Below, piece by piece: positions 5,005 to 46,243 of a stretch of 54,221 nucleotides of DNA. Under the pieces are notes generated by a model. The model was not told the DNA's origin and made no database searches. It worked only from the letters and a program-made list of their open reading frames with translations. Source of the DNA: Nostoc sp. TH1S01 (GTDB taxonomy: Bacteria > Cyanobacteriota > Cyanobacteriia > Cyanobacteriales > Nostocaceae); NCBI GenBank assembly GCA_018993265.1, contig JAGKSW010000181.1, positions 1-54,221 on the forward strand. The letters are read 5' to 3'. How positions within the stretch are numbered: the stretch's first letter is position 1; each line of letters starts with the position of its first letter. A program made the translations under genes and the position numbers.

Positions 5005-7155
5005 CTACAAATTTTTGACGATCGCTCCAAAGTCAGCTAACACCCGCGCATGATTTCGCAACAATCCCAGCAAATTCAATCGATTGCGCTTAATATCTGG
5101 GTTGGTATCCATAACTAACACGCTTTCCGGGCCATCAAAGAAATTACTAACGGTAGGGGCGATTTTTTCTAACGCTGCAATTAACAATTGATAGTTCCGT
5201 GATTGCTGGGCGGTTTGGGTTTGGGGTACTAATTCCACAATGGCATCGTAAAATGCTTTTTCAGATGACTTTTGGAATAGTTCAGGATTGATTAAATTTG
5301 CTGGTTCTAGCTGTTTAGTGTCTAAATCGCCTTGGGCGGCGAGGCGGGTAGAACGGTTGACGGTTTCGTAGATTTTATCGAGAGTACCATCATTGCGGAT
5401 TTGTTGCAGATATAAGGCGCGATCGCGGACATCCAATAAATCTTGCAATGCTCTTTCTGTATATTCTGGGTCATTTTCGCCCAATACAGCATTTACCAAA
5501 TCGTAATCAATTTGTTTCTCTTCTTGCAGTAATGTCCGAATTCTTTGCAGGAAAAATTCTTGCAGGCTTGTGACTAATGTCCCTGGTTCTTTATTATATT
5601 CCTGGGCAAAATTAGCGGCTGTTTGCTGCAATAAATTATCTAAATTAATTCCTAAATTCGCAGCCCAAGTAATATTTACAATCGCATTCGCCGCCCGACG
5701 CAAAGCAAAGGGGTCAGAAGAGCCAGAAGGAATCATCCCCAAGCCAAAAATGCTAACTAGAGTATCTAATCTATCAGCTATTCCGACGACTTGACCTGTT
5801 AAACTTTCTGGTAAAATATCATCGGCACCCCGTGGTAAATAATGTTCAAAAATTGCCGTTGCCACTGCGGCATTTTCGTCACTGGCTAAAGCATATTTCT
5901 GCCCCATAATGCCTTGCAATTCAGGAAATTCATACACCATTTGGCTAACTAAATCTGCTTTACACAATAAAGCAGCGCGTTGAATATTTTGTTTGTCGGT
6001 ATCAGCTAAATTTAGTTGTGCAGCAATTTGTCCAGCAATATTGATGATGCGATTTACCTTAGCACGTAGCGAACCTAAATCTTCTTGGAAAGTTACCTTT
6101 TCTAATTGGGGTAAAAAGCTTTCTAAAGGTTTAGCAATATCGGCGTTATAGAAAAACTGTCCATCAGCTAATCGGGCGCGGATGACTCTTTCATTTCCTT
6201 TAGCGATGATATCAGATTTTGTCGGGTCGCCATTAGAAACGGTGATAAAATTCGGCAATAATTCCTGATGATTTTCTCCTTTAAAAACAGGAAAATATCG
6301 CTGATGGCTAACCATCACAGTAGTAATTACTTCTGTGGGTAAGTTCAAAAATTCCGAGTCAAACTTACCCACGACTGGCGAAGGCCATTCAACTAAATTA
6401 GTTACTTCTGTTAATAAATCGGGATAGATTTCTGTGGAACCATTGACCGAATTAACGGCGGCGTGAACTTCTTTTTCAATTGTCGTTGCACGTTCATTGT
6501 CATCAACGACTACATAAGCAGAACGTAGAGTTTCAACGTAATCAGTTGCTTGGTTAATAGTTATAGTTTCGGGATGTAAAACACGATGACCATGAGAAAT
6601 GCGATCGCTGGTAATTCTATCCGAAGCATTCACCAATTCTATCGGCAAAATCGCCTCATCCAACAACGCCACCAGCCAACGCACCGGACGCGAAAATCTC
6701 ACATCACCATCGCCCCAGCGCATCAACCGCTTACCTTCTAAATTGAAAATCCATTGAGGAACCAGTTCAGTCAAAATCTCCGCTACCGGACGACCAGGAG
6801 TTGTTTTGTTAACAAACACAAAATCGCCTTTATCCGTGGGGCGAACTTGTAGCGTGTCCAGTTCCACACCTTGCTTTTTGGCAAAACCTATAGCTGCTGG
6901 TGTGGGTTGACCATCTTTAAAAGCAGCTTGGGCGGGAGGGCCTTTGATTTCTTCTTCCCGGTCTGGTTGTTGCTGTGGTAGACCTTTGATAAGTACCGCC
7001 AAGCGTCGGGGAGTACCGTAAACTTCTACAGCGTCACTGTTGAGACTATTGGCTGCCAAAGTTTGGGGAATGCGTGATCGCCATTGTACGATAGCATCAC
7101 TGAGAAAATTTGCAGGTAGTTCTTCTGTACCAACTTCCAATAAAAAATCCGGCAT
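5005..7155 (-). CDS. glyS: Glycyl-tRNA synthetase beta subunit
   Basis: This is the beta chain of the bacterial alpha2beta2 glycyl-tRNA synthetase, which attaches glycine to tRNA-Gly. The 716-residue product begins [17 protein letters not shown], the family signature, and has the internal [22 protein letters not shown] block ([20 protein letters not shown]), the [12 protein letters not shown] motif and the HD-type DPFALRRAA segment. Length is normal. The alpha subunit gene glyQ is not in this window, as expected since the two are commonly unlinked in cyanobacteria. It is divergent from the small-gene pair at 7256. Confidence 0.96.
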
Positions 7156-7255
7156 AGGACAAGGTTCACATCAGTCAATTCCACCAGTTTACCTTGCCAT
7201 CATGTTGAAGTATGCCATACTTTAGCATCTATACACTCTAAAGTGAGAATGTCTC

Positions 7256-7429
7256 ATGCCAACTGCTGAACAAGGCATCAGGTGTGTCATACTATGTCAA
7301 TCTTTGACTAATACATTCACTCCTATTTATATTGTCCGCCTCGATGAGCAAACAGGTAACGTCTTTATTTTGGCAGGCGATAATATAGAGATAGAAATAT
7401 ATCGCAATGGTCTTTGGAGGTTCTTGTGA
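7256..7429 (+). CDS. DUF6888-like small cyanobacterial protein
   Basis: This 57-residue frame starts at ATG 7256 (MPTAEQGIRCVILCQSLTNT) and ends NGLWRFL. Its pattern (Cys near residue 14, IYIVRLDEQTGNVFILAGD, then IEIEIYRNG) fits a short family recurrent in filamentous cyanobacteria, which I recall as DUF6888. Its TGA overlaps the ATG of the next gene (TGATG), strong support that it is real and coupled. Function unknown; two-gene coupling of tiny proteins is reminiscent of toxin-antitoxin organisation but nothing in the sequence proves this. Confidence 0.7.
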   Translation: MPTAEQGIRCVILCQSLTNTFTPIYIVRLDEQTGNVFILAGDNIEIEIYRNGLWRFL

Positions 7430-7647
7430 TGAAACCTGACTTTAGTAGTATGACCAAAACTGAGTTAAGAGCTTTCGTCATTGCTCACCCCGACAATAAA
7501 ACAGCATTTCGTACCTTTGTTGACCGCTTTACGTCTGAAGCATCACCACAGACTTTTGATATTCCAAAATCAAATTCTGAAATTGAAGAAGTTGAATTTT
7601 TAATTAGACAAAAGTTAGCAGAAATAAATATGAAACGAGATTTTTAG
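7429..7647 (+). CDS. DUF6887-like small cyanobacterial protein
   Basis: This 72-residue protein starts at the ATG at 7429, inside the stop of the preceding gene and downstream of a good GGAGG box at 7416-7420. A TTG at 7414 would overlap that Shine-Dalgarno and is less likely. Sequence: MKPDFSSMTKTELRAFVIAH, then a helical acidic C-terminus. The 'MTKxELRAYVLxH' opening is typical of a short family that travels with DUF6888 genes (DUF6887 as I recall it). Function unknown. Confidence 0.7.
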   Translation: MKPDFSSMTKTELRAFVIAHPDNKTAFRTFVDRFTSEASPQTFDIPKSNSEIEEVEFLIRQKLAEINMKRDF

Positions 7648-7660
7648 GTAGTTGCACAGC

Positions 7661-8077
7661 TTAAGCTTGATTTTCTACTTCCTCAGTTTCTTTAAAAATA
7701 TCTTCATCGTCTTCAATTTCATCAGATTCTTCTTCGTCCTCTTCAGAAGAGTCAAGCAAATCTCGAACTTCAGCAAAAGATTCATCTGATTCAGAAGATT
7801 CTTTTATCTGCTCATCAATTAATTGAATTTCATCAGCAAATCTAATATTTTCAACTGCATCACTTTGATCAAGAGTTGTTACGAAATACCTTACTTCCCC
7901 AAACTGACCACTGATTGCCTTATATTCAATAGTTTCTGGAGACTGATTATCTAATTCCATTTTTAACTGGTATAAAGCATAAATACCTGCTGCTTCAGGA
8001 AGATAATCTGCTGCGGATATAGTAGCTGTGACTACTTTAAAGTTGTTGAAAAAATTATCGTGAACTGTTTCTTCCAT
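7661..8077 (-). CDS. Acidic hypothetical protein
   Basis: This 138-residue protein has a folded-looking N-terminal two-thirds (residues 1-95) and a very acidic tail (SSEEDEEESDEIEDDEDIF). I do not recognise the family. The tail resembles those of nucleic-acid-mimicking or histone-chaperone-like proteins, but that is only a compositional remark. It converges with the small pair ending at 7647 (13 bases between stops) and has a long AT-rich upstream region. Confidence 0.6.
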   Translation of the reverse strand: MEETVHDNFFNNFKVVTATISAADYLPEAAGIYALYQLKMELDNQSPETIEYKAISGQFGEVRYFVTTLDQSDAVENIRFADEIQLIDEQIKESSESDESFAEVRDLLDSSEEDEEESDEIEDDEDIFKETEEVENQA

Positions 8078-8508
8078 ACATATAAATAATGAGGAATTTA
8101 GCTCAGAAAAGTTACTTTCTGATTTTTTAAATGATTTTACTCAATAACTAATAATAAAAAAATTGATTTTATAAAAAATATCATCATTGAGACAGACTTT
8201 AATATATTATCCATTTGCATACGTTTCTAGTTATTTATTACATAAATAACCCTTTTATGGCAAGTAAAAGAGGCTATTCAGTAAAAAATATATTTAATTG
8301 TTACAAATTAATATTTTTTGTTTAAAAATTAAATGGACTCTTCTTATTAAGAATTATAAAAAGTTTAATCTATAAATGTTTTGTGACAAATTAACTAAAT
8401 TTTAGCAGTTAACAAAGATAGGTTAAAAAGTATGGTTGCTACAAGCCACCAATATAAATAGCATGATTTTTGTCTATTTACGACTTTTAAAATATGCTCT
8501 AACAGAAA
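8078..8508. other. AT-rich intergenic region
   Basis: About 430 bases with very low GC, no codon-like reading frame and no HIP1 site. It presumably holds the promoter of the acidic-protein gene (minus) and the 3' flank of the DndD-like gene. The ORF-like stretch running from 8436 into the DndD-like gene is antisense shadow. I see no defined hairpin terminator. Confidence 0.5.
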
Positions 8509-10581
8509 TCACCAATTACGCTCAACCACCATCACCTCAGTATATTCAAATTCATTCGGGCTTTGCTTCACTAACGGATATCTTTCCTCACCCAACTCAA
8601 TATAATCTTGTTCACAATCAGGCTTAGACGAATAATAAATCAACACATATTCCCTGCCAATTCTATTCACCATTTCTTGCTCTACTTCACCACGCCATTG
8701 AGTTTTCGTCACTAAAATAATTAACTGATTTGCTAACTCAGGTAATGTTTGAGCAATGCGACGACGATAACTTTCATCTAAACTTCCAAATGGAGAATCC
8801 ATCACAATGGGAAAAGTACTGCTATTCGGTACAGTTAAAACTTTGCGCTTTTCACTCCATTCGCGGACTCTATCAATAATACTGGCAATAAAAGACAAAC
8901 TGAGAATTTGGTTCTCTCCTGTAGATGCAGCAACAAGTGATTCGACTCCGGTGGTATTTTCTATTAAAGTGAGTTCATATTTATCGCTAATTTTCGGGAG
9001 ATACGGCGCAAAAGATATTGAAGTGAATATTTCCTGCAATCGCTTTTCTAATTGCCAACGAAATTGTTTTTCTTGCCGATTTCTGACTTCGGTTAATCTT
9101 TCAATTGCGTCTTGAGTGGCGTTGATACGTCTTTGTGCTAATAACTGCTTTTCTTCATTGAGTTTCTGCTTGGATATTTGTTTGGTTAAAGCATCAATCT
9201 CAGTTTTTAAATGGGAAATTCGCTGTTGATTTGCACCTTGTTCTCGGTTCAATTCATCAATTTTACTTTCAATTTCATCTAAGCGTTTTTGTAAACTACT
9301 AATTTCTTCATTCGCATCTTTACGCAACCGTTCTTGAATTGTGTCTAATTCAAGTTCAATTTGTGAGATGTTTTGGCGTAACTGATTAATTCTCGTTTGT
9401 TCTCTATCGACTTCTTCCCAAAATGCTATAGCTTGCTTATCAATTTCATCGACTTGGGCGCTCATGCGAATTGCTGTTTCTTCCACAACCGACGAACCAG
9501 CCTTTTCTAACCAATGGTTTACATGAGTATGGTGATGACTACCTGCATTTAATTCTGTTCCACAAATACAGCGATTACTTTTGAGTAATTCATTGATAAA
9601 TTCTCTGGAAATTCCTGATGTTAATTCGCCGCGTGCTTTCAAATCATGCAGAATTGTCCGAAATTGCTGTGTCGTGTCTGACAGCAGAATTGTATAACCG
9701 CGTGCAGAAATGATTTTTTTGAGTGCGTCTCTGGTTTGCCGCCATGATTCTTGATGAGCAGCTTTTTGGTTTTCTAATTCTTGTCGTCTGTCTTGCAGTT
9801 CTTTAGCGGCGCTGAGTTCGAGTAAACGATTCCCGGTTTCTTTTTTAAAGTTTTGTTGATATTCTAACTCTTGCTTGATTTCTGTTTGTCTGGTGTTAAT
9901 TTGGGCAATTTCTTGTTCTAACTTGTCTTGTTCTTTAAGCAGTTGTTTAATTTCTGAGTCACCGATGGCTTTTAATTCATTTTCTAAACTTTTTTTGGCT
10001 TCACTAAGATGTTTAATAGAACGGTTAATTACCTCTACACCCAAGAAAATTTTGATAGCTTCGGCTATTTCGGCTTTTTTATCAGAACGAACTATTTCTT
10101 CAATCCGTTCCCCATCAAAGAAAAAGTATTGATGTAAACTTGCGGGTAAAATCTGCCCAATGATTTCTTCTGGTTTTTGCAGTGGGAAATACCATCTACC
10201 ATCATCCCCAGCCACTTGCATTAATAATTCTGTTTTGAGAGATTCCAAGTCTGTTTTATCTTTATATATGCGACATTGGCGTTTGGCGTTGTAGCGTTTA
10301 CCTTCATGCTCCCAGTTAATTTCTACCCAACATTCTATCGATTGCCCAGTTTTAGCTTCTGCGATCGCTCTTTTGTTCACCAACTGTTCTGTTGAAGCAA
10401 AAGCAGCACTGAACTTTTCATATAATACCCACGTAAACGCATTCAGTAAACTGGTTTTTCCCGCTCCATTATTCCCATGAATAATTGTGGTGTTGAGAAT
10501 ATCACCCCCAGCCAAAACTATCTCTGGTGTTCTGCCATAAAAAGAGCGAAAGTTACACAGTTTAATGGAAGTGAGCTTCAT
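8509..10581 (-). CDS. dndD: DndD-like SMC/Rad50-type ATPase
   Basis: This 690-residue protein has the DndD length and layout. The Walker A loop GNNGAGKT is at residues 36-43 and the DndD hallmark YFFFDGERIEEI at 152-163. Long coiled coils (about 190-290 and 375-480) flank a CIC metal-hook-like turn at C338/C340. An ABC-type signature follows (STGENQILSLSF) with Walker B VMDSPFGSLDE. In phosphorothioation systems DndD acts with DndC/E to place sulfur on the DNA backbone. No dndA, B, C or E is seen here, so this may be a dispersed Dnd gene or a stand-alone relative. It is coupled by ATGA overlap to an upstream 57-residue gene. Confidence 0.75.
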   Translation of the reverse strand: MKLTSIKLCNFRSFYGRTPEIVLAGGDILNTTIIHGNNGAGKTSLLNAFTWVLYEKFSAAFASTEQLVNKRAIAEAKTGQSIECWVEINWEHEGKRYNAKRQCRIYKDKTDLESLKTELLMQVAGDDGRWYFPLQKPEEIIGQILPASLHQYFFFDGERIEEIVRSDKKAEIAEAIKIFLGVEVINRSIKHLSEAKKSLENELKAIGDSEIKQLLKEQDKLEQEIAQINTRQTEIKQELEYQQNFKKETGNRLLELSAAKELQDRRQELENQKAAHQESWRQTRDALKKIISARGYTILLSDTTQQFRTILHDLKARGELTSGISREFINELLKSNRCICGTELNAGSHHHTHVNHWLEKAGSSVVEETAIRMSAQVDEIDKQAIAFWEEVDREQTRINQLRQNISQIELELDTIQERLRKDANEEISSLQKRLDEIESKIDELNREQGANQQRISHLKTEIDALTKQISKQKLNEEKQLLAQRRINATQDAIERLTEVRNRQEKQFRWQLEKRLQEIFTSISFAPYLPKISDKYELTLIENTTGVESLVAASTGENQILSLSFIASIIDRVREWSEKRKVLTVPNSSTFPIVMDSPFGSLDESYRRRIAQTLPELANQLIILVTKTQWRGEVEQEMVNRIGREYVLIYYSSKPDCEQDYIELGEERYPLVKQSPNEFEYTEVMVVERNW

Positions 10582-10751
10582 TGTACGGCTTCCTTGACAA
10601 TTGCCAAAATATCATCGTTGATGGGGCTATTACTTTTTTTATCTAGCCTGTTTTTTTCGAGATTCCAGACTCGCTCAATAATTTGCCGCACTTCTGGCGA
10701 GGCGCTAGTAATTGGCTCTTGCACATCATCGATATTCTGCTCTGGCAACAT
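10578..10751 (-). CDS. 57-residue protein coupled to DndD-like gene
   Basis: This small frame is read on the minus strand from ATG 10751 (MLPEQNIDDVQEPITSASPE, then VRQIIERVWNLEKNRLDKKS) and ends at a TGA that overlaps the ATG of the DndD-like gene (ATGA). The 4-base overlap and the helical, charged composition argue for a real gene. It is not DndE, which is about twice as long. I do not recognise it; a small partner subunit of the SMC-like ATPase is the simplest inference. Confidence 0.65.
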   Translation of the reverse strand: MLPEQNIDDVQEPITSASPEVRQIIERVWNLEKNRLDKKSNSPINDDILAIVKEAVQ

Positions 10752-11067
10752 CTCAGTTTCGGATGAGTTATGCTTTATTTTAGCCGGAGATGATTGATAA
10801 TTTTACATCCGCCATCTGACTCTTACTCACATCTTTAATTTATGGTAATTATGGGGAGGAAAATTTTAAAATTTTTTGACAAAATTAAGGTTAATTTGGG
10901 TGAATTTACTGATATACTGAATTTATGTTCAATCTTGATAATAATGGAGTGTTTGTCGCTTTAAAAATTTCGCTGCTATCCCATTATGATCAATATTAAT
11001 TATTCCATAAGGAATCGGGATATTTACAGGTAGCAAACAAAATTTTACAAAATTAACCACAGGTGGA
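10752..11067. other. Intergenic, no gene seen
   Basis: About 315 AT-rich bases between the helicase gene (ending at 11068 on the minus strand) and the 57-residue gene. It must include the promoter of the dndD-like operon. No RNA gene, repeat array or clear hairpin was recognised. Confidence 0.45.
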
Positions 11068-12543
11068 TTAAACATCTAATAATCCATAGCGTTTTTGTAA
11101 ATCTAACAATTTCATTCTTGCTTCCCCAGCGTTATCGGCTAAATCGGCAAATTCAACAAAGCGCCGCAGTTCTTTTCTTAATAAATTACGTTCAACTTCT
11201 ATAGTTTCCCTGTCTAAATCTGGTGGCAGCACAATCATATCGTAAATAGTCGCCCGTTCCTTACTTGGATGAGGCCGTAAAACTCTGCCTCGGCGTTGAA
11301 TAAATTGGCGAGGATTTCCAGAACTCGATAAAATCACCGCAGTTTTAATTGCGGGAATATCAACGCCCTCATCTAAACAGCGAATGGCGACTAAACCTTG
11401 TAACTCACCATTTTCAAATTGATGGCGTAAAACTTCTCTTTCTGCTAACGGCGTTTGGGCTGTATAGGTACTAACTTTATAACCTAAATCTCCTCCCAGA
11501 ATTTTCACAACGGCTTTGAGTTGTTGTAGAGATGAACGTCCCGTTTCCAACGAACCATCACTACAATAAAAAAGTGTATGAGTAGTGTCGCGGCGTGTTG
11601 CCATTAATTGCCGTAATGCAGTTAATTTATTGGCTGCTGCACCAATTAATCTCGCCCGTTGCATTAATAAAGGTTTTAAATCTTCGTTGTCTTCAAAATT
11701 GGGGGAATTCTCAGTTTTGCGTTCTCGATAGAGTAAAGAACGCCCGATTTTTTTAGTTAATTTTAAATAAGCAATGCTTTCAGTTTCCGTTAACTCTACC
11801 AAAATCGGATAATACAAATAATGTACCAAAGCTCCTTGTGCGATCGCATCCCGCAATGTAAACTCTGGTTGCAGTACCGGGCCGAAATAATCAAATAAAG
11901 ATTGGGTACCGCTATCATCAAAATATCTTTCCGGTGTGGCAGATAAAGCCAACCGCAACCCAACCCGCCGTGGTAAACTTTCCTCTAACTTGGGTGCGCC
12001 TAAATTATGTGCTTCATCCCCAATAATTAAAGTTTTTGGCGGTAAATACTTGAGTTGCGATTGGAAACCTTCACCAATTAATGTCGAGTTGGTCGTAATG
12101 ATTGTGATAAAGCCTTGAGAACCAGAACGCAAATTGTAAAGTTGGGTAGAAAGTTGACTTTGCCAACTGCGGACATTCTCAAAGGCTAATATCGGTTGTA
12201 AATTAAACTTTTCGCATTCTCGCGCCCATTGGGTAACAAGATGACGATAGGGACACACCACCAACAGCACTTGTAAGTTAATTTGCTGGTACAATTCACA
12301 AGCGATCGCCAATGCAGTAATAGTTTTACCACTACCAGTCGCCATTTTTAACGTCCCTCTGCCATTGTTAGCAAACCAGTTAGTAACAGCTTGGCGCTGA
12401 TACTGGCGCAATTGCAGAGATGACGGTATCCTCGGACATCCTGGTAATGGTTGAGTCTGGTAGCTACCCTTACCTTCCCTAGCAAAAGGTATTCTTAGCC
12501 GGAAAGTGGGTAGCTGCTGCACTGAATTTTGCGTCAGGTACAT
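11068..12543 (-). CDS. SF2 helicase, Dnd-associated restriction-like
   Basis: This 491-residue superfamily 2 helicase has motif I MATGSGKT at residues 67-74, a DEAH box at 176-179, motif III SAT at 201-203 and a QRRGRVLRP motif VI near residue 415. The XPB/SSL2-like layout with LRQYQRQAV (Q-motif region) resembles the family NCBI/TIGRFAM names 'DNA phosphorothioation system restriction enzyme'. It probably tracks DNA using ATP. It lies downstream, on the same strand and 500 bases away, of the DndD-like pair, which supports the Dnd link, but restriction activity is not shown by the sequence. Confidence 0.7.
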   Translation of the reverse strand: MYLTQNSVQQLPTFRLRIPFAREGKGSYQTQPLPGCPRIPSSLQLRQYQRQAVTNWFANNGRGTLKMATGSGKTITALAIACELYQQINLQVLLVVCPYRHLVTQWARECEKFNLQPILAFENVRSWQSQLSTQLYNLRSGSQGFITIITTNSTLIGEGFQSQLKYLPPKTLIIGDEAHNLGAPKLEESLPRRVGLRLALSATPERYFDDSGTQSLFDYFGPVLQPEFTLRDAIAQGALVHYLYYPILVELTETESIAYLKLTKKIGRSLLYRERKTENSPNFEDNEDLKPLLMQRARLIGAAANKLTALRQLMATRRDTTHTLFYCSDGSLETGRSSLQQLKAVVKILGGDLGYKVSTYTAQTPLAEREVLRHQFENGELQGLVAIRCLDEGVDIPAIKTAVILSSSGNPRQFIQRRGRVLRPHPSKERATIYDMIVLPPDLDRETIEVERNLLRKELRRFVEFADLADNAGEARMKLLDLQKRYGLLDV

Positions 12544-12616
12544 AAAAAATCAAAAACAAAGTTGGTGATGAACCCTAATAACAAGCGTGAAGTGTGAAGG
12601 ATAAAAGATGAGATTT

Positions 12617-12644
12617 CATACTTCATACTTCATACTTCATACTT
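12617..12644. repeat. Heptanucleotide array, CATACTT x4
   Basis: Four perfect tandem copies of CATACTT. The last base and the two that follow form the TCA that is the lexA stop codon (TGA on the minus strand), so the array abuts the coding end. Such short tandemly repeated heptamers are a hallmark of heterocystous cyanobacteria. Confidence 0.9.
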
Positions 12645-13249
12645 CAGTTGTATCCACGCCAAACGCCGACAAGAGAACCTTGCACCTGTACCTGCATTGC
12701 CGAAACTTCAATGGGGTTATACTTTTGGTTAGCAGGTTGGAGAGTAACGCGATCGCCATTCCGATAGAAGCGTTTTAAAGTACTACCATAACCCTCAACT
12801 CTAGCAGCAACAATCGTGCCATTTTTTAACTGATCTGGTTCTGGTACTGGCAGTAAAAATACCAAATCTCCATCAGCAATTAAATCTTCAATCATGCTAT
12901 CGCCAGTTACCCGCAAAGCATAGGTTTGTGGCGGTAAAGAGATATTAGAAAAGTCGAGATAATCTACCGCTTCCGTAAAAGGTTCAATTAAACCACCAGC
13001 AGCAATATTACCTAAAATTGGCACACCTTGCTTAATTGGATGCAAAATCCGAATTGTGCGGGCCTTACCTTCAGTCCATTCAATATAGCCTTTATTTCGT
13101 AAATGTTCTAAGCGACTTTGAATAGGCGCTGGCGATTTCAAATTCATCGCTTGCATCATTTGGCGAATTGAAGGAGAATGTTGGTGCATTCGGATATATT
13201 CTGCCAACCATTCATATAATTCTTGTTGAGCTTCTGTTAGTCGTTCCAT
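12644..13249 (-). CDS. lexA: LexA repressor
   Basis: This SOS-type repressor and S24 autoprotease has 201 residues from the ATG at 13249; the longer in-frame start at 13273 adds residues unlike LexA. The N-terminal winged helix is at residues 1-65. The scissile pair A84-G85 is in NIAAGGLIEP, the Ser nucleophile is S118 (TGDSM), and the general-base Lys is K159 (STLKRF). All three are intact, unlike the non-cleavable LexA of some unicellular cyanobacteria, so classic RecA-stimulated cleavage is possible. A perfect cyanobacterial LexA box sits 33 bases upstream, indicating autoregulation. Confidence 0.93.
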   Translation of the reverse strand: MERLTEAQQELYEWLAEYIRMHQHSPSIRQMMQAMNLKSPAPIQSRLEHLRNKGYIEWTEGKARTIRILHPIKQGVPILGNIAAGGLIEPFTEAVDYLDFSNISLPPQTYALRVTGDSMIEDLIADGDLVFLLPVPEPDQLKNGTIVAARVEGYGSTLKRFYRNGDRVTLQPANQKYNPIEVSAMQVQVQGSLVGVWRGYN

Positions 13250-13281
13250 AATAATTATTGGAAGTAAATACAAATGTCCCT

Positions 13282-13295
13282 AGAACATTAGTACT
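13282..13295 (-). promoter_or_regulatory. LexA box upstream of lexA
   Basis: Read on the minus strand the site is AGTACTAATGTTCT, which fits the cyanobacterial LexA operator RGTACNNNDGTWCB at every position. It lies just upstream of the lexA start, the expected place for autorepression. The match to the published consensus is from memory. Confidence 0.8.
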
Positions 13296-13334
13296 ACAAA
13301 AAATTCCAGATAACAAGATGAAATTAAAAAAATC

Positions 13335-13373
13335 AAAGGCAAAAGAAAGAAAAAGTTTAGTTCTTTTGCCTTT
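13335..13373 (-). terminator. Intrinsic terminator of argF
   Basis: A perfect 13-bp inverted repeat (AAAGGCAAAAGAA at 13335-13347, complement at 13361-13373) with a 13-base loop. On the minus strand the hairpin is followed by a T-rich run (GATTTTTTTAATTT). It lies downstream of argF and upstream of lexA, so it would end argF transcription and insulate lexA. Confidence 0.75.
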
Positions 13374-13452
13374 TATCTTTTTAATTTTTACTCATAAACT
13401 CAGATAAGTTGTCACAGAATAAATTGCTCAAAGACTTATGGGAACTGGGTTT

Positions 13453-13485
13453 GCACTCAGCACTCAGCACTCAGCACTCAGCACT
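13453..13485. repeat. Heptanucleotide array, GCACTCA-type
   Basis: Nearly five tandem copies of a GCACTCA heptamer, ending 12 bases short of the argF stop codon. The same heptamer forms the larger array at 24694-24745 after argD. Confidence 0.9.
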
Positions 13486-13497
13486 TTTATTTCCTGT

Positions 13498-14418
13498 TCA
13501 CTCAGCCCCCAAAATACTAGCCAGCAAGGCTTTTTGTGCGTGCAGACGATTTTCGGCCTGATCCCAAACTCGTGAGTGTGAACCTTCAATTACTTCTTCA
13601 GTAATTTCTTCACCACGATGGGCTGGTAAGCAATGTAAAACAATTGCATCTTTATCAGCCAAGCTCAGCAATTGCTCCGAAATTTGATAAGGTTGAAAAA
13701 TTGGCATTCGGTCATCGGCTTCTTCTTCTTGACCCATACTTGCCCAAACATCAGTGTAAAGTACCGATGCTTCTTTAGCAGCTAATTCTGGGTCATGAGT
13801 CAGCAGAACTTCAGTTTTACCAGCAGCGATCGCTCGTGCTTGTTCTACAATTTTGGCATCAGGTTCAAATCCTTTAGGAGTAGCAACCCTGACATTCATC
13901 CCCGCCAAAGCACAACCCAACATCAAAGAATTCGCTACATTATTCCCATCACCTACGTAAGTTAAAGTTAAACCAGCCAACGTTCCAAAACATTCTTGAA
14001 TCGTCAATAAATCAGCCAATATCTGACAGGGATGTTCCGCATCAGTCAGTGCATTAATTACAGGAATTTTGGCATAGTTAGCGAAAATTTCTAAATCCTG
14101 TTGGGCAAAAGTCCTAATTGCCAAAATATCTAAATATCTATCTAACACCCGTGCTGTATCTTGGATAGGTTCGCCGCGACTCACTTGCGTAACATTGGGA
14201 TGAAGATCAATTACCTGTCCACCCAACTGGTACATCGCCACCGTAAAACTCACCCGCGTGCGAGTTGAAGCTTTAGAAAACAACAAACCCAACACCTTAT
14301 TACAATGTAACTTTAGCTGTTGAGATTTCAGTTGCCCAGCCAATTGTAGAATTTCTTGAAGTTCCGTTGGACTGAAGTCCGCCAGACTTAATATATCTCG
14401 TCCGATTAACACTGCCAT
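13498..14418 (-). CDS. argF: Ornithine carbamoyltransferase
   Basis: ArgF makes citrulline from ornithine and carbamoyl phosphate in arginine synthesis. The product is 306 residues from the ATG at 14418, the usual size; an upstream frame to 14475 would add 19 atypical residues. It shows the carbamoyl-phosphate motif STRTR (51-55), HPCQ (129-132) and the ornithine-loop HCLPA. argD is about 10 kb away on the same strand, but the arginine genes are not one operon here. Confidence 0.96.
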   Translation of the reverse strand: MAVLIGRDILSLADFSPTELQEILQLAGQLKSQQLKLHCNKVLGLLFSKASTRTRVSFTVAMYQLGGQVIDLHPNVTQVSRGEPIQDTARVLDRYLDILAIRTFAQQDLEIFANYAKIPVINALTDAEHPCQILADLLTIQECFGTLAGLTLTYVGDGNNVANSLMLGCALAGMNVRVATPKGFEPDAKIVEQARAIAAGKTEVLLTHDPELAAKEASVLYTDVWASMGQEEEADDRMPIFQPYQISEQLLSLADKDAIVLHCLPAHRGEEITEEVIEGSHSRVWDQAENRLHAQKALLASILGAE

Positions 14419-39196: not shown

Positions 39197-40203
39197 CACA
39201 TATAGGATTCATATTTGATTTTTGAAAAAAATCCGTACTCATCTAAAGTGCTTCTTTTCTGTTCCCTGTTCCCTACCTACGTCAATAATTTCAGTCATCA
39301 AATCGGAGTTACGTACCTGTTGCTGTTTCACCTCTTACCTCTGGCCTATGCCAATTACAAAAATTTACATCTTCCTTTCTGGAAAATAGAGGCTAGAGAC
39401 TGGAGATTAGGAATTAGAGAAAAAAGTTTTTCAAGTTTGGTTGTGGATTTTTCCCATGATTGACGGACTTGAAAAAAGCCGGAGTAAAACTACTCTCTAG
39501 AAAACTGATTCAGTAATTAAGATGAATAGAACCACTGCATCCAGTTTTAGAAGTAGTGTAGCGTTCCTGAAAAGGATAAGCTATCCAAATAGTTTTGGAG
39601 AATTGAATTTTACTACCAAAGCTAAAAGGTAAAGTGACTTGATTAGGGTATGTAATAGTTTGATGTTTCCAATTGATAATCAAGGCATTTTTGATGAATT
39701 ACTTGCCGTTTTTTATTTACCAAGCTTACAGTAAATAACCAATTACAGGGTTGATTTTTGAACTATGAAATATCCCAATAGAGCATCGATTCATTAAGCA
39801 AAACCCCAACCCCACAGCCCCCCTTCACTACGAGGTAAGACTGGTTGTATCAGAGGTTATTTCAAGATGACTGAATTGAGGTTATCATATCTCACGCCAC
39901 TAGCAAAATGCGAAAAAATACATTTTGCAGAATTTAGCGAACCTCTTACTAGCCAAGGATTTTAACCCGGATTTATTGACAGTATAGCAAAGTTAATCTC
40001 AAAAAAAGGTACACAAGAGGGTACTATTCATCACCTAAAAAATTAACTATCTTAGTTACAGGTTGAGGCGAGAAACTAGTAGTGAAACCGAAAGTCCTCA
40101 GAGGTTCTTAAACCAATGTTGCTTACTTTCCAAATAGCTTGATCTAGTTTCTCCACTCAATTCTCTCAAGTTCATTTTTGATTAACAAACAAAGGAGTCT
40201 ATC
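39197..40203. other. Long intergenic region upstream of the peptide cassette
   Basis: A kilobase with TTCCCTG-type repeats near 39253, no credible gene (the frame at 39215-39463 has repeat-derived composition) and one clean hairpin, GCAAAATG/CATTTTGC at 39903-39928. At 39764 the first 15 bases of the exporter gene (ATGAAATATCCCAAT) recur, followed by a stop soon after; probably chance. The region must contain the promoter of the peptide gene. Confidence 0.5.
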
Positions 40204-40350
40204 ATGTCTAAGAACAACAATGTTACCAACCGCCAAAAAAAAGAAGTTCGTCAACAAGAACAGAACAAACCTGCAATCACCGAGCTTTCTTTTGAAGCTA
40301 TGGAAACAATTTCTGGTGGTGCAGCTAAAGTTAAATGGGGTCTTGCCTAA
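40204..40350 (+). CDS. Double-glycine leader peptide precursor (48 residues)
   Basis: The frame starts at ATG 40204 behind an AAAGGAG box. The charged leader ends in ELSFEAMETISGG, matching the LSxxELxxIxGG pattern that C39 peptidase-ABC exporters cleave, with GG at residues 38-39. The released core would be AAKVKWGLA, nine residues, net positive with one Trp. There is no Cys, Ser/Thr or Asp/Glu in the core for lanthionine, azole or lasso chemistry. Downstream, after a hairpin, lie TPR, exporter and HlyD genes. The precursor character is well supported; whether the product is a signal, a toxin or a modified peptide is open. Confidence 0.85.
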   Translation: MSKNNNVTNRQKKEVRQQEQNKPAITELSFEAMETISGGAAKVKWGLA

Positions 40351-40389
40351 GAAAGACCAACTACTAGCTTCCACTAATTGCTAGTAAAG

Positions 40390-40440
40390 AAAGCTAGTGC
40401 AACAGGGGGTGATGAAGACTTATCCTGTTGCACTAGCTTT
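40390..40440 (+). terminator. Strong 17-bp hairpin after the peptide gene
   Basis: AAAGCTAGTGCAACAGG (40390-40406) pairs perfectly with 40424-40440 across a 17-base loop, followed by TTTATATA. It would end or attenuate transcription after the precursor gene, giving more peptide than transporter mRNA, as in many peptide-export operons, or stabilise the short mRNA. Confidence 0.8.
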
Positions 40441-40498
40441 TATATAAAAGGTAACACATAAATAACCCAAAAAGTTATGATTTTTAGGAGAAAAAGAA

Positions 40499-41815
40499 AT
40501 GTTATCGATAGAAAGTTCCCCAAAAGCTTGGTTGCATCAAATCTATTTAAATTTAGGCAATTTTGCAGCAGGTTCTCCCCACCATTATAAAGTTGAATTT
40601 AGCTACAATCACTTGATGGAGCAGACTTCAGCCCCGTATCAAGTGCAAGTAAGTCTTCCAGAATCTTTCCGAGAATTTCTCATCCGCGAATCTGGACTAT
40701 ACCAATATCAAGTTAAGAATCCTTTGGAACTAGCTCCTGAATTGCGGACACAAAGATGGCAAAACTTGTGTGAGCATTTAACTAATTATTCAGAACTATC
40801 TAAATCTACCCAAGTTAAGGTTATTAAACTACTGAGTAGCTTGTGTTTTCATCAAGCTGTTTTAGAGTACGTACCACCCATCTCAGCAGTTGAGATAGCA
40901 AACGATGTTGATAGTGCATCTCTGGCTTTATCGCGTGCTATGTCTGACTTCATTTTACATAGCGATCGCTACTTACCCTATAATTTCAAAGACTTAGAAA
41001 CTATTGCCCAAAATGCACCACTGGGACATCTCGCTAGAATTACAGCTGGACTGCAAATATTAGTGGAGTTAGCCAAAACCTTCAAAGATTTAGAAGGTGC
41101 AAAGTATTGGCGTTCAATTGTTAATAAAGAAATTGAGTCAACTCTACCATCACTACATAGCTTTACTTCTGGATTGTTAATGAGTGTTTACTATCGTGCT
41201 GCTGTCTTTGTCCCACTTTTGGAAAAGGATCAAGATACAGTCATTGCTGAGATGGATCTTTGCCAATCTTATGCTGAAAGTTTGATTCCTGAAAACCAAG
41301 AACAACAGATTATTGCTTACGAGAATCTCAACATTATTGGTGAAAGTCGCACTAAGGAAGCACTTTGGTTGCGTGATTTCGATTTAGCTGAAGAACGCGC
41401 TCGCAAACTAGTCGAGCGAGATATTTTAGATCCCAGATATCGCTTGGAGTTAGGAGAAGTTCTCTTGAAGCGAGGACGAGTTGAAGAAGCGGCTCAAGCC
41501 TATCGCAGCGCCACTCGTTTGGGGCCTCCGGGTACAGCAGTCGGTTGGTTTATGGCTGGACAATGCTACCAGTCTTTGGGAGAATTACAGGTAGCTTATG
41601 ATTGTTACCTTACATGTTTGCATTACGATCCTTTGGCTATTTCTGCTATCAAACGTTTGTACCAACTTACATCTTATTTAGGAGATGAAAAAGTTTCTGG
41701 TTGGTGTGAATTGCGTTTGTCGCAACTGGAACAAGAAAAACACAACATGACAGCTAAAGGGAGTAATCTTCCTACTTATATTCCAGCAGTTCCTACGCCG
41801 ATGCAAGCTGTTTAA
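40499..41815 (+). CDS. TPR protein of the peptide cassette
   Basis: This 438-residue soluble protein has a good start context (AGGAG before ATG 40499). The C-terminal part (about 300-410) has TPR-type repeats such as AEERARKLVERDILDPRYRL, LGEVLLKRGRVEEAAQAYRS and AGQCYQSLGELQVAYDCYLT. The first 290 residues are helical and I do not recognise them; there is no helix-turn-helix and no enzyme motif. It lies 42 bases before the exporter gene and 148 bases after the precursor. It could bind the precursor for export, act as a peptide sensor, or modify the peptide; none is shown by sequence. Confidence 0.8.
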   Translation: MLSIESSPKAWLHQIYLNLGNFAAGSPHHYKVEFSYNHLMEQTSAPYQVQVSLPESFREFLIRESGLYQYQVKNPLELAPELRTQRWQNLCEHLTNYSELSKSTQVKVIKLLSSLCFHQAVLEYVPPISAVEIANDVDSASLALSRAMSDFILHSDRYLPYNFKDLETIAQNAPLGHLARITAGLQILVELAKTFKDLEGAKYWRSIVNKEIESTLPSLHSFTSGLLMSVYYRAAVFVPLLEKDQDTVIAEMDLCQSYAESLIPENQEQQIIAYENLNIIGESRTKEALWLRDFDLAEERARKLVERDILDPRYRLELGEVLLKRGRVEEAAQAYRSATRLGPPGTAVGWFMAGQCYQSLGELQVAYDCYLTCLHYDPLAISAIKRLYQLTSYLGDEKVSGWCELRLSQLEQEKHNMTAKGSNLPTYIPAVPTPMQAV

Positions 41816-41857
41816 TTTCTAAGTGTTATTTTCTGCAACTGAATTGTCAGCAAGCTT

Positions 41858-44011
41858 ATGAAATATCCCAATGTACTCCAACATAACGAAGAAGACTGTG
41901 GGGCAGCTTGTTTGGCTTCAATCGCCAAGTATTATGGACGTACATTTACTCTCAACCGCATTCGTGAAGCTGCTGGAACTTATCGCTCTGGTACAACTTT
42001 ACTCGGCTTAAAACAAGGAGCAGAGGCACTAGGATTTACCAATGTTAGAGGCGTTAAAGTTACTCTCAGTGTAATTGATGATCGCTCCGTTTCCCTGCCT
42101 TGTATTATTCATTGGAAAGGTTTCCACTGGGTTGTCTTATACGGAAAAAAGGGTAAAAAATATGTAATTGGCGATCCTGCGATCGATGGACTTCAATACA
42201 TCGAGAAACAGTGGTTAGAGCAAGCTTGGCACGATGGCATTTGTCTCGTTCTTGAACCCGATCCCGTTAAATTCCTGGCTCAAGAAGATGAAAGTGATAA
42301 AATAGGCGGATTATCGCAGTTTGTCAAGCATATTTGGCATGAGCGTTCCCTATTTTTCCAGATATTAATTCTTAATTTAGTAGTAGGAATAATTGCCTTA
42401 GCTGCTCCTTTACTGCTGCAAATTTTAACAGATGATGTGCTACTCAGAGGAGATAATCAGTTACTGACTCGCCTGATTATTGCCATCCTCACCATCAATT
42501 TGGTTGGCAGTAGTTTAGATTGGTTACAAGCCAGTTTTATCTCTCACTTCGCTCAACGATTAGAATTAAAACTAATTTTGCAGTTTGCCCAACAAATTTT
42601 ACGTTTACCCCTAAGTTACTACGAATCTCGTAGGAGTGGAGAAGTTACTAGCCGCTTAAGGGATATTCAATTGATCAATCAACTAGTTTCGCAAGTTTTG
42701 ATCAATTTACCCGGTCAGTTATTTGTGGCTATAGTTTCTTTAGTATTGATGCTTTATTACAATATAAAACTGACTTTAATAGCATCTGTACTCGCATTTT
42801 TGATGCTTTTATCAACCTTGATTTTTCTCCCCGTACTGCGGCAAAAAACCAGAAATTTACTCAGTAAAGAAACTGAAAATCAAGGCATTTTAGTAGAAAC
42901 TTTTAAAGGAGCAATTACTCTCAAAACTATTGCGGCTGCGCCTCAGTTATGGGAAGAATTTAAATTCCGGTTTAGTCGCTTGGCGAAAGTTTCTTTTTCA
43001 ACTATTCAAATTAGTATTACTAACAATACTTTTTCTCGCTTAGTAGAGAGAATAGGAGGAATTGTCTTTCTTTGGTTTGGTAGTAGCTTGGTAATTGGTC
43101 AAGAGTTAACTACTGGACAATTACTCGCCCTTTATAGTCTGAATCGGAATATTACTATACTACTGATTAATCTGGTCATTTTTACTGATGAATTTGTTCG
43201 GGTAGATGCAGCAGCACAGAGAATCACCGAAGTAATTGAACATTCATCTGAAACTGACACAGATAACCATAAACCTTATGTTACTTTTTCTGGAGACGAT
43301 ACAATTAATTGCACAAATCTTAATTTTAATTATACGGGACGCATAACGCTTTTAGAAGATTTTAGCCTGACTATACCAGGGAGAAAAGTTATTGCTCTCA
43401 TCGGTCAATCTGGTTGTGGCAAAAGTACCCTCACCAAATTATTGGCAGGTTTATATCCGCTGCAATCAGGCAAGATTCGGATCGGTGGTTACAACATAGA
43501 AGATATTTCTTTAGATTGTCTGCGTCAGCAAGTTGTTTTAGTTCCTCAAGACCCACATTTTTGGAGTCGGAGTATTATTGATAATTTTAATTTAATCGAC
43601 CCTAAAATTACTTTTGAAGAAATTGTCAGTGCTTGTAAACTTGCTGAAGCTGATGAGTTTATTAGCGATTTACCAAGCCGCTATCAAACAATTTTAGGAG
43701 AATTTGGTGCTAATCTTTCAGGAGGACAAAGACAAAGATTAACTATTGCTAGAGCGATTGTGAAAAACCCACCAATTTTAATTTTGGATGAATCTACCAG
43801 TGCGCTTGATCCTGTTAGTGAAACTAAAATATTAGATAATATATTACAACATCGCCAAGGTAAAACAACAATTTTAATTAGCCATCGTCCGCGAGTTATT
43901 CAGCGTGCTGATTGGATTGTTTTTTTAGATAAAGGACGCTTAAAAATTCAAGGAACTCTGGAAGAATTGTCTCAACAACCAGGTGAGCATTTAAATTTTA
44001 TTACTGCCTAA
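41858..44011 (+). CDS. Peptidase C39-containing ABC exporter (PCAT)
   Basis: This 717-residue transporter has an N-terminal C39 peptidase: oxyanion Gln8, catalytic Cys14 (EEDCGAACLA), His90 (GFHWVV) and Asp106 (IGDPA). A six-helix membrane domain follows (about 160-440). The nucleotide-binding domain has Walker A GQSGCGKST (about 516-524), LSGGQRQR (about 621) and Walker B ILILDEST. It would cut the double-glycine leader of the upstream peptide and pump the core across the inner membrane. All catalytic residues are intact. Confidence 0.95.
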   Translation: MKYPNVLQHNEEDCGAACLASIAKYYGRTFTLNRIREAAGTYRSGTTLLGLKQGAEALGFTNVRGVKVTLSVIDDRSVSLPCIIHWKGFHWVVLYGKKGKKYVIGDPAIDGLQYIEKQWLEQAWHDGICLVLEPDPVKFLAQEDESDKIGGLSQFVKHIWHERSLFFQILILNLVVGIIALAAPLLLQILTDDVLLRGDNQLLTRLIIAILTINLVGSSLDWLQASFISHFAQRLELKLILQFAQQILRLPLSYYESRRSGEVTSRLRDIQLINQLVSQVLINLPGQLFVAIVSLVLMLYYNIKLTLIASVLAFLMLLSTLIFLPVLRQKTRNLLSKETENQGILVETFKGAITLKTIAAAPQLWEEFKFRFSRLAKVSFSTIQISITNNTFSRLVERIGGIVFLWFGSSLVIGQELTTGQLLALYSLNRNITILLINLVIFTDEFVRVDAAAQRITEVIEHSSETDTDNHKPYVTFSGDDTINCTNLNFNYTGRITLLEDFSLTIPGRKVIALIGQSGCGKSTLTKLLAGLYPLQSGKIRIGGYNIEDISLDCLRQQVVLVPQDPHFWSRSIIDNFNLIDPKITFEEIVSACKLAEADEFISDLPSRYQTILGEFGANLSGGQRQRLTIARAIVKNPPILILDESTSALDPVSETKILDNILQHRQGKTTILISHRPRVIQRADWIVFLDKGRLKIQGTLEELSQQPGEHLNFITA

Positions 44012-44052
44012 TCTTTAAACCACTTGAAACTTACTATAAGGGATTTTCTATT

Positions 44053-45531
44053 TTGAACACTTCTCAAGAAGATTTTTTCTTTTTAGGCGAAGAAAAAGAA
44101 TTATTACCATCACTCAGCCGTTGGATGAGCTGGGGCGGATTGTTGATTGTGGGAACAGTGGCAGCGACAATTATTGTATCCTCAGTCTTCAAATATAATG
44201 TTAGCGTTCAAGCACCAGCTACTATTCGTCCTGATGGAGAATTGCGAGTTGTTCAGCCAGGAATTGAAGGACAGGTCAAACAAATTTTCGTGAAAGCAAA
44301 TCAAGAAGTGAAAGCAGGAGACATTCTTGTATCTTTGGATGATACTCGCTTACAAATTCAAAAAAGCCAGCTAGAAGCTCGCCTGCAACAATCTAAATTG
44401 CAATTGTCGCAAATCAACGCCCAAATTCGCGCTCAAGATGCTCGGATTTTGGCAGAAACAGAAAGAAGCGATCGCGCTATTGTTTCTGCTAAAGCTGAAC
44501 TGAATCGTTCTCGGCGAGACTATCGAGATAAACAAATTACCAGCCAAGCGGATGTAGAAGAAGCACAAGCTAAGGTTAAAAGTGCTAGAGAAAAGTTGCA
44601 ACAGACCCAGGCGGAGTTAAAAGCAATCGAGGCTAACGCGCGATCGCTACAAGCTTCTTTTAACTCAGCAGTAGTTAGGCGCGATCGCTACAAAATCATA
44701 GCTGAACAAGGTGCTTTACCACTAGATCAATTAGAAGAAGCTCAACTCGCGGTTAATCAGCAAACAGAAGCACTGGAAGCTCAAAAAGCTACTACTCAGG
44801 CTCATCAAAAACTTATTGAACAGCATAAACAAGACTTAGCCGCAGCCATTGCTAACTTGCAGAGAGTGCAAGCTTTCTTGAAACCCGACACCGCAGAAGT
44901 CACAGTCGCAACTGAAAAAATTGCTCAAGAGAAAGCCACTATTAGTTCACTCTTAGCAAATCTGACAAAAGAGCGAGATGCACTGATTGAACAGCAAATT
45001 GATTTACAAAAACAGATAAAAAGTGATCTAAAAGAACTACAAAAAGTGGCTTTTGACTTACAACATACTGTCATTAAAGCTCCTATTGATGGCATTATTT
45101 TAAAAATCAATCTTCGCAATCCAGGTCAAACAGTTGCAACCAACTCAGAAATTGCTCAAATTGCTCCTAGCAAGACCCCATTAATCATTAAAGCTTTAGT
45201 CACTGCTCAGGATGTGAGTAAGGTGAAAAGCGGGCAAAAAGCACTGTTGAAAGTTTCGGCCTGTCCTTATCCAGATTATGGTACGCTCAAAAGCCAAGTC
45301 AGGCAAATTTCTCCAGATGCTGTATCTGTTGAAAGCTACAGTGCAACTTCGCCAACAACAGCAAACAAAGTGTATGAAGTCACGATTACACCAGAAAGTC
45401 TGGCTTTAAAGCAAGGAGTAAATCAGTGCTTTATTCAATCAGGGATGGAAGGAAAAGCTGAGATTATTTCTGGACAAGAAACAATTCTGCAATCTCTGTT
45501 AAGAAAAGCGAGATTACAGACAGATTTATAG
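44053..45531 (+). CDS. HlyD-type membrane fusion adaptor
   Basis: This 492-residue periplasmic adaptor is read from a TTG at 44053. One membrane helix (about 28-47), a lipoyl half (RVVQPGIEGQVKQIFVKANQ), a long coiled-coil hairpin (about 100-330) and a second lipoyl half (VIKAPIDGIILKINLRNPGQ) follow the order of HlyD/LcnD adaptors. It would connect the exporter with an outer-membrane channel encoded elsewhere. The stop is directly followed by a MITE. Confidence 0.93.
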   Translation: MNTSQEDFFFLGEEKELLPSLSRWMSWGGLLIVGTVAATIIVSSVFKYNVSVQAPATIRPDGELRVVQPGIEGQVKQIFVKANQEVKAGDILVSLDDTRLQIQKSQLEARLQQSKLQLSQINAQIRAQDARILAETERSDRAIVSAKAELNRSRRDYRDKQITSQADVEEAQAKVKSAREKLQQTQAELKAIEANARSLQASFNSAVVRRDRYKIIAEQGALPLDQLEEAQLAVNQQTEALEAQKATTQAHQKLIEQHKQDLAAAIANLQRVQAFLKPDTAEVTVATEKIAQEKATISSLLANLTKERDALIEQQIDLQKQIKSDLKELQKVAFDLQHTVIKAPIDGIILKINLRNPGQTVATNSEIAQIAPSKTPLIIKALVTAQDVSKVKSGQKALLKVSACPYPDYGTLKSQVRQISPDAVSVESYSATSPTTANKVYEVTITPESLALKQGVNQCFIQSGMEGKAEIISGQETILQSLLRKARLQTDL

Positions 45532-45532
45532 T

Positions 45533-45814
45533 TAGGACTTACGCACGAGTTACGGAATAACGTAGACGCGCACTTCGGCTTCCCGCAGGGTAACACAGAG
45601 AGAAGTTGCGTGCGGAGAGAACTTGCGTGCGCGGGTTCCCCGCGTTGAGCAAAGTTCGGGGGGTTCCCCCCGTTGAGCAAACTTCGGTAGGCGCAGAGAA
45701 GCCAGTGCGTTCGGTCGCCAGACTTGTAGACGCGCTTTGCGCGGCTTCTCGCAGAGTAGCAACTGGCGCAACACGGAGAAATCAGAGTTTGAGAGTTTTT
45801 TTGCGTAAGTCCTA
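45533..45814. mobile_element. MITE with 11-bp TIRs and TA duplication
   Basis: GGACTTACGCA (45535-45545) and its inverse TGCGTAAGTCC (45802-45812) are each flanked by TA (45533-45534, 45813-45814), the signature of an IS630/Tc1-mariner-type miniature element. It fits between the stops of the HlyD gene and the DUF202 gene with a base or two to spare. Inside are two 27-bp direct repeats (45633-45659 and 45661-45687, 25 of 27 identical) and GC-rich palindromic material; the small frames in it are not genes. Confidence 0.8.
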
Positions 45815-46243
45815 TTAATCTGGAATCACTGGACTCAAAGGGCTAAGAGGAGTAGTAAACACGTAATAAATTACTCCAGCGCCAAGAATCATAATTGCCA
45901 AACTGAACAAAATTACCCAGCGGTCTGTAGGTTCATAATTATCATCTTCAATATCACGACGCACAGCAAAATAGTGTGCCGTTGACAGCCATACTGTCAC
46001 TAACCCAACTAAAGAAAAGACTAAACCCAACTTCCAGCCATTGCCAGGTGTGGGTAATAAAGGGACTTGAAAGGCTCGCAGACGGACGATAACGACTCCA
46101 AAACCCAACAGTGCGATCGCAGTTCGCATCCAAGCCAGGTAGGTGCGTTCATTGGCTAAATGATCCCTGATTCGTGATGGATTTAGCCTTCCTAGTTTCT
46201 TCTTTTCTTGGTTCTCTTCTGTTGGCTTAGATTCTAATTGCAT
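45815..46243 (-). CDS. DUF202 (YidH-like) membrane protein
   Basis: This 142-residue protein has a basic start, then RDHLANERTYLAWMRTAIAL, the DUF202 hallmark, and three hydrophobic segments ending VILFSLAIMILGAGVIYYVF. I prefer ATG 46243; an upstream in-frame ATG (to 46381) adds 46 residues of no family character. Function of the family is unknown. Its stop codon touches the MITE. Confidence 0.85.
   Translation of the reverse strand: MQLESKPTEENQEKKKLGRLNPSRIRDHLANERTYLAWMRTAIALLGFGVVIVRLRAFQVPLLPTPGNGWKLGLVFSLVGLVTVWLSTAHYFAVRRDIEDDNYEPTDRWVILFSLAIMILGAGVIYYVFTTPLSPLSPVIPD

Follow-up and report, generated by a model that had tools for sequence, protein, structure and literature searches.

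A short-core double-glycine precursor gene paired with a gene for a tetratricopeptide repeat protein in Nostoc sp. TH1S01 and other cyanobacteria

Gene clusters that combine a C39 peptidase-containing exporter, an HlyD-family adaptor, and a SurA-type protein are already known in cyanobacteria (PMC3140520). In their main text, Wang, Fewer and Sivonen (2011) sort the cyanobacterial C39 bacteriocin clusters into groups I to VII, with double-glycine (GG) leaders, short- or long-type C39 exporters, HlyD, and SurA/rotamase, and give an average of 0.35 precursors per cluster for group I. Short propeptides that adjoin a cytosolic tetratricopeptide repeat (TPR) protein are described for the RRNPP systems Rap, NprR, PlcR, and Rgg (PMC10075063). 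TPR proteins also occur in clusters for ribosomally synthesized and post-translationally modified peptides (RiPPs), such as AmmC2 of ammosamide (PMC12424672) and the Bacteroidales clusters with peptidase-containing ABC transporters (PCATs; PMC10352776), where a role in scaffolding or peptide binding has been suggested and is unproven. Thioamidated RiPPs are encoded with YcaO and TfuA (PMC8120280). In this study, we describe a locus of Nostoc sp. TH1S01 lying in a window of 54,221 nucleotides (the whole stretch of DNA analysed, contig JAGKSW010000181.1), and we report that a very short GG-leader precursor gene and an adjacent TPR gene recur together in cyanobacteria.

The locus (window 40204-45531) holds four open reading frames (ORFs) on the + strand, in the order precursor, TPR protein, C39 exporter, and HlyD adaptor, with intergenic gaps of 148, 42, and 41 nt (Table 1). 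The initial annotation had read the first gene, of 48 codons, as a GG leader followed by only nine residues, and the three downstream genes as a TPR protein, a PCAT with intact C14, H90, and D106, and an adaptor; all of this was borne out. The leader ends ...F-E-A-M-E-T-I-S-G-G, with I at -4 and M at -7, the two places where PCAT-exported GG peptides carry hydrophobic residues, and the product is a ribosomal precursor comprising leader and core, as in RiPPs; it had no match in Pfam, NCBIfam, PADLOC, or PHROGs. The downstream proteins match Pfam TPR models, Peptidase_C39 with ABC_membrane and ABC_tran, and HlyD_3, respectively. In an alignment, the three exporter residues correspond to the Cys/His/Asp stretches of the C39 domain from ComA (3k8u), and the exporter has the peptidase, transmembrane, and ATPase domains of a PCAT. 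The window genome has seven C39 matches overall.

The window order was sampled at 291 genomes, and the cyanobacterial class draw comprised 388 genomes. A contig scan of GTDB with a TPR alignment yielded 19 named loci, of which 13 were cyanobacterial; of the other 6, four came from Bradyrhizobium, one from Leisingera, and one from a Myxococcaceae metagenome-assembled genome (MAG). Four of the 13 were contigs already in the set (L006/L026, L017/L029, L019/L034, L020/L033), so that 20 distinct cyanobacterial loci were available, some of them close relatives. The TPR family is patchy, being found in 11/291 genomes of the order and 4/388 of the class draw. All 11 TPR genomes of the order have a GG-leader ORF with a core of 7-20 residues within about 650 nt upstream, and all 13 cyanobacterial GTDB loci carry such an ORF upstream of the TPR gene. 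A mechanical rule (a GG-leader/short-core ORF at most 700 nt upstream), formulated post hoc with the precursors already known, placed a precursor ahead of 18 of the 20 TPR genes. As a control, 181 other ORFs from these loci, each 150 aa or longer, were examined, and 2 of them had one. By eye, a precursor is also present in L023 and L035, which the rule missed. The expectation that such a frame always precedes the TPR gene thus held for 20/20 cyanobacterial loci, with cores of 7-20 residues; outside cyanobacteria it held in the looser sense of a peptide-like ORF, and no C39 domain was found there. Starting from the leader gave a similar picture. The type-2 leader profile matched 11/291 genomes, nine of them TPR genomes, and the type-1 profile (A5) matched strongly in G000 and G084 only, both TPR genomes, so that 11 of the 13 leader-profile genomes are TPR genomes. 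Weak type-1 matches in 4/291 other genomes were long-core precursors with a different leader and were set aside. The precursor-TPR pair is a conserved module, and no description of it was found in the literature searched, subscription papers lying outside the coverage.

A comparison of ORFs of at least 90 aa over the 20 cyanobacterial loci returned five groups present in more than five loci: the TPR protein (20), the ABC exporter (18), HlyD (18), a peptidyl-prolyl isomerase (PPIase, 13), and a helix-turn-helix (HTH) protein (10). A C39-type exporter lies within 10 kb in 18/20 loci, the L023 stretch showing only its C-terminal half. Among these shared ORFs, neither a modification enzyme nor an immunity gene could be recognised, as the initial annotation had stated for the window locus. 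Seven representative scans of groups common to 3-5 loci gave histidine kinases, Methyltransf_4 (tRNA-methyltransferase-type), Trp_syntA, FIST, and Metallophos; these were taken as housekeeping genes. Neither YcaO nor TfuA was found in the eight window proteins scanned or among the scanned ORF groups common to at least 3 of the 20 loci. Most relatives lie near a long-type exporter and HlyD, and 13/20 have the PPIase, a content resembling group I of PMC3140520. Unlike the clusters of that paper, they combine cores of 7-20 aa with a dedicated TPR gene; the words 'tetratricopeptide' and 'TPR' are absent from its main text.

A clade of the TPR tree (99/98) unites the window with Chlorogloeopsis fritschii, G084, and an uncultured relative. 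Their exporters are short-type and 68-80% identical to that of the window, and their leaders are of the type ...ELSFEAMETISGG. Wherever an exporter is in view at the remaining loci, it belongs to the long-type family and is 32-39% identical to that of the window (the ORF of L032 being without the N-terminal extension), and the leader is of the MAEIKIN...AFxTLRGG type. On these sequences, the most economical reading is a single joint switch of exporter and leader type, with the TPR protein and the short core retained, which would tie the TPR protein more to the peptide than to the exporter, on a single event. The motif F-x-[ST]-[LV] occurs in 13/13 aligned type-2 leaders, and its counterpart F-E-A-M in 4/4 type-1 leaders.

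TPR homologues outside cyanobacteria were found in Leisingera, the Myxococcaceae MAG, Streptomyces, and Bradyrhizobium, and a search of 13 such loci gave no C39 domain. In the Myxococcaceae MAG (L037) and Leisingera sp. ANG-Vp (L042), the TPR gene adjoins YcaO and TfuA genes that score above the Pfam cut-offs, as in the thioamidated RiPP clusters of PMC8120280, in whose main text 'tpr' has 0 occurrences; unlike those clusters, the window has neither gene among its scanned proteins. Two Streptomyces plasmids, near-identical in the region, have the TPR gene between AraC-type and BTAD regulators. Upstream of the TPR genes of Leisingera, Myxococcaceae, and Streptomyces lie micro-ORFs of 22-23 aa, (V/M)KKKKSIKTFATLATTTPLTVCF, MKKKKIKKFETLDSKSPLSVQF, and MKRNTNNLFQTFNPKRPLTTLV, each preceded by a Shine-Dalgarno-like sequence. 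They were first picked by eye; among 155, 354, and 419 ORF ends, those of the three lineages were mutual best C-terminal matches (last 14 residues) in 6/6 tests. The TPR gene occurs in 7/146 Bradyrhizobium genomes, and 2/292 genomes of the order of Leisingera matched. In 10/10 loci (Bradyrhizobium and one of the two Leisingera-order matches), it is preceded by an ORF of 130-151 aa ending A[RLC]FG, with weak DUF4760 in L039, and the nearest edge of a cyclase-family ORF lies within 5 kb (Pfam on L039 and L040). The motif [FY]-x-[STC] begins 14-15 residues from the C-terminus in all ten of these ORFs versus 69/3463 control ORF ends; the ten loci are mutually related and therefore amount to far fewer than ten independent cases. 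The leader elements F-x-[ST]-[LV] and F-E-A-M of the cyanobacterial precursors resemble this motif, which in the wider form [FY]-x-[STC/A], recognised post hoc, is also shared with the micro-ORFs.

The L042 region 5870-13861 is a candidate RiPP cluster in its own right, with a Trp_halogenase-family flavoprotein, a 702-aa protein that had no match in Pfam, NCBIfam, PADLOC, or the PDB, a 74-aa ORF ending VAVLCW, a 22-aa micro-ORF, and the TPR, YcaO, and TfuA genes. The module of the ten Bradyrhizobium and Leisingera-order loci (L038-L041, L061-L066) comprises a cyclase-family protein of about 1110 aa (zinc ribbon, AAA, TPR), the 130-151 aa ORF, and the TPR protein. The Bradyrhizobium cyclase has the tail MRFWG, which resembles ARFG at the end of the small ORF; we presume this to be a coincidence of the cyclase family.

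Since a peptide-like ORF and the TPR gene stay constant as the outlet varies by lineage, we read the TPR protein as the constant partner that binds the precursors of a RiPP-like micropeptide family in the cytosol; binding, cleavage, and export are inferred, and we give this reading just under an even chance. It builds on gene content, association, and conservation, which are directly established, and on a fold that is predicted. The TPR protein would retain the 48-aa precursor in the cytosol, perhaps by binding its leader around F-E-A-M, and would present the C-terminal core. Cleavage after Gly39 by the C39 domain of the exporter would follow, and the PCAT-HlyD channel would export AAKVKWGLA, or a modified form of it, as a very short secreted peptide. 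The outlet would be C39/HlyD export in cyanobacteria and a YcaO-TfuA route in Leisingera and the Myxococcaceae MAG. AmmC2 and the Bacteroidales proteins are similar in being TPR proteins encoded within peptide-maturation clusters (PMC12424672, PMC10352776). Unlike the present locus, those clusters carry peptide aminoacyl-tRNA ligases (PEARLs) or radical S-adenosylmethionine (rSAM) enzymes.

Several observations weigh against the TPR protein being such a partner. G283 and G112, members of genus g71, to which the Microcystis loci also belong, have a type-2 precursor and no TPR gene, which shows that the precursor can exist without the TPR gene; G283 keeps the exporter cluster. The leaders of these two genomes read FTTI (G283) and LKSL (G112) at the motif position, the latter with L in place of the leading F. 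L026 (a 3.2-kb contig) and L029 are without an exporter in the stretch seen. In an AlphaFold2 docking proxy (the L028 read-through of precursor, intergenic linker, and TPR protein), the precursor had a pLDDT of 27-42 and no confident docking was obtained, an uninformative outcome. The [FY]-x-[STC/A] motif is short and was found post hoc; type-1 leaders carry A for S/T, L066 carries C, and the residue after the motif is not hydrophobic in Bradyrhizobium. The Myxococcota evidence is one MAG contig. For Bradyrhizobium and Streptomyces, the lack of a C39 domain in the loci searched counts against the reading, and a RiPP pathway there is an assumption; their regulatory neighbours (AraC, BTAD, cyclase) fit a signalling role as well. 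Enzymes are not absent near the Bradyrhizobium copies, since L039 has major facilitator superfamily (MFS) and P450 genes 3' of the TPR gene, 3 others of the 10 loci have counterparts of these, and a subtilase (Peptidase_S8) gene, a candidate for the leader protease, adjoins the TPR gene in the Bradyrhizobium MAG L038 (11325-12599, - strand).

The TPR protein may instead modify the C-terminal core as a maturase, with Trp or its vicinity as the probable site in cyanobacteria, so that precursor and TPR gene would form a minimal two-gene RiPP pathway. We regard this as unlikely, although it is the best of the alternatives. Beyond the exporter and the PPIase, no enzyme-like ORF of 90 aa or more recurs in more than 5 of the 20 loci, and nine polar residues (R58, R233, E282, S283, K286, E287, R300, Y335, and C356) are invariant over 16 diverse homologues. 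Trp occurs in 17/18 distinct cores beside a TPR gene (Cys in 11/18) and in 0 of the 746 residues of the 18 leaders. For this count, identical cores were merged (the four contig pairs named above and L027/L028/L036), and two interrupted copies of Microcystis G262 and a displaced core of L021 were left out. The precursors of the two TPR-less genomes have no Trp (Fisher p 0.016, a small sample). The L024 core, ATLHKSSLL, has a TPR gene beside it and yet no Trp, and the non-cyanobacterial peptides have no Trp among their last 14 residues. The fold also weighs against a maturase. Pfam TPR repeats cover residues ~290-395 of 438, and the protein is modelled for the most part as a TPR superhelix; its best matches by VIA are TPR domains of LGN in crystals with partner peptides. 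Matches to the folds of LGN and Rap begin at about residue 98, and those to others, including IFIT1 and APC, begin at ~15-24, so that only the first residues are unplaced and the absence of a match there is not evidence. Placement of the N-terminus in a known enzyme family, which the initial annotation had named as a result that would speak against its idea, was not seen; in the model this part is all-helical. Scans with Pfam and NCBIfam gave no catalytic domain and no HTH, no known defence, phage, or NCBI family matched except weak generic TPR models, and no homologues were found in viral contigs or phages.

An RRNPP-like quorum-sensing system, as the initial annotation had proposed, would have the cell take up the exported nonapeptide again; the TPR protein would bind it there and in turn control a partner. 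The pairing on which the proposal rested stands, as a conserved one, and the resemblance to a short propeptide adjoining a cytosolic TPR protein (PMC10075063) is real; the receptor itself gained no specific support, and we consider it rather improbable. Unlike RRNPP receptors of the PlcR, Rgg, and NprR type, the TPR protein has no HTH; the locus also differs in that the precursor gene comes first and the peptide would be C39/GG-processed. Generic TPR structures match the protein better than Rap does, although RapI aligns over residues 103-415. Homologues occur with YcaO-TfuA and without a C39 exporter, and the Bradyrhizobium partner is the 130-151 aa ORF, which shows no signs of GG processing. 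The TPR protein is conserved across four Microcystis loci whose leaders are almost identical and whose cores cannot be aligned; the co-variation of core and TPR surface that a receptor had been expected to show was not seen, these four proteins being a weak test.

The same comparison bears on self-protection, in which the peptide would inhibit growth and the TPR protein would sequester it inside the producer. The TPR gene adjoins the precursor in every cyanobacterial locus examined, no other immunity gene was recognised among ORFs of at least 90 aa, and the cores are as diverse as rivalry would produce. An immunity protein should diversify with the core, which the four Microcystis TPR proteins do not, and a related partner peptide is kept across phyla; we find self-protection quite improbable. 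That the locus is an ordinary cyanobacterial bacteriocin cluster with an incidental TPR gene fits the wide distribution of C39/HlyD/SurA-type clusters in cyanobacteria (PMC3140520), but the 18/20 versus 2/181 association and its recurrence in other phyla speak strongly against this, leaving it very little credence.

The variable core with its retained Trp suggests recognition diversity, as for a signal or an antagonist. The prenyl transferase ComQ takes part in making the Bacillus pheromone ComX; the cores resemble ComX in being short, hypervariable, C-terminal, and Trp-retaining, and differ in that no ComQ-like gene was seen among the window proteins scanned. In three close Nostoc loci the core is identical despite differing leaders and is thus apparently constrained. 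In Microcystis G236 (L021 8872-9030), an intact precursor with the core AAAKWVVR is directly followed, 3', by a second leader fragment with the core CCWCYYMQM, which has apparently been displaced via partial tandem leader duplication. Microcystis G262 (L023 ~5773-8500) has three precursor copies at a spacing of exactly 1229 bp; two tandem copies show 5 differences in the interval from -276 to +1229 relative to the ATG, and 4 of these fall within the core. Directed hypermutation of the core by a diversity-generating element was considered and rejected, because the sequence from inside the core onward is a dispersed mobile-element-like repeat (~28 genomic copies at 90-93%) that interrupts both cores. 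Two Nostocaceae loci (L016 7038-7328, L017 10694-10987) have, close to the short-core precursor, other GG precursors with long cores and MANIKINNL... leaders.

A broader proposal, that a RiPP-like class in at least four phyla is defined by an [FY]-x-[ST] micropeptide and an adjacent TPR recognition protein that is possibly its sole maturase, the cyanobacterial form being a hypervariable, Trp-containing secreted peptide that could serve as a strain-specific signal, is possible and, in our judgement, doubtful. If it were true, a peptide class would be defined by a TPR-fold recognition protein, one lineage linking it to C39 export and another to thioamidation-type genes. Such a class could provide substrates for some cyanobacterial C39 clusters that have no assigned precursor, its two-gene signature would let genome miners find very short precursors overlooked by annotation, and it would offer candidate peptide signals in Nostoc, Chlorogloeopsis, and bloom-forming Microcystis.

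Table 1. Features of the precursor-TPR locus (positions in the window)
Feature	Position	Strand	Basis or remark
Shine-Dalgarno-like AAAGGAG of the precursor gene	40191..40197	+	sequence; 6 nt ahead of the ATG
Precursor gene, 48 aa, ATG start, type-1 GG leader and nonapeptide core	40204..40350	+	homologues in L015, L024, L025
Leader MSKNNN...ITELSFEAMETISGG, 39 aa	40204..40320	+	leader profile A5
FEAM, type-1 counterpart of type-2 F-x-[ST]-[LV]	40291..40302	+	post hoc motif; inferred TPR binding site
Core AAKVKWGLA, Trp retained	40321..40347	+	
Long hairpin between precursor and TPR genes, attenuator/terminator-like candidate	40389..40441	+	-32.5 kcal/mol, z -8.6
TPR protein, 438 aa, putative dedicated precursor-binding partner	40499..41815	+	
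Short-type C39 peptidase-containing ABC exporter (PCAT), 717 aa	41858..44011	+	
HlyD-family adaptor, 492 aa, TTG start	44053..45531	+	

The hairpin between the precursor and TPR genes was not called by the consensus terminator scan, and its U run lies partly within the stem; a terminator role is therefore unproven. Beyond the locus, the segment from the HlyD gene to a DUF202 gene (window 45536-45815) is GC-rich and repetitive-looking, and is perhaps an interspersed repeat.

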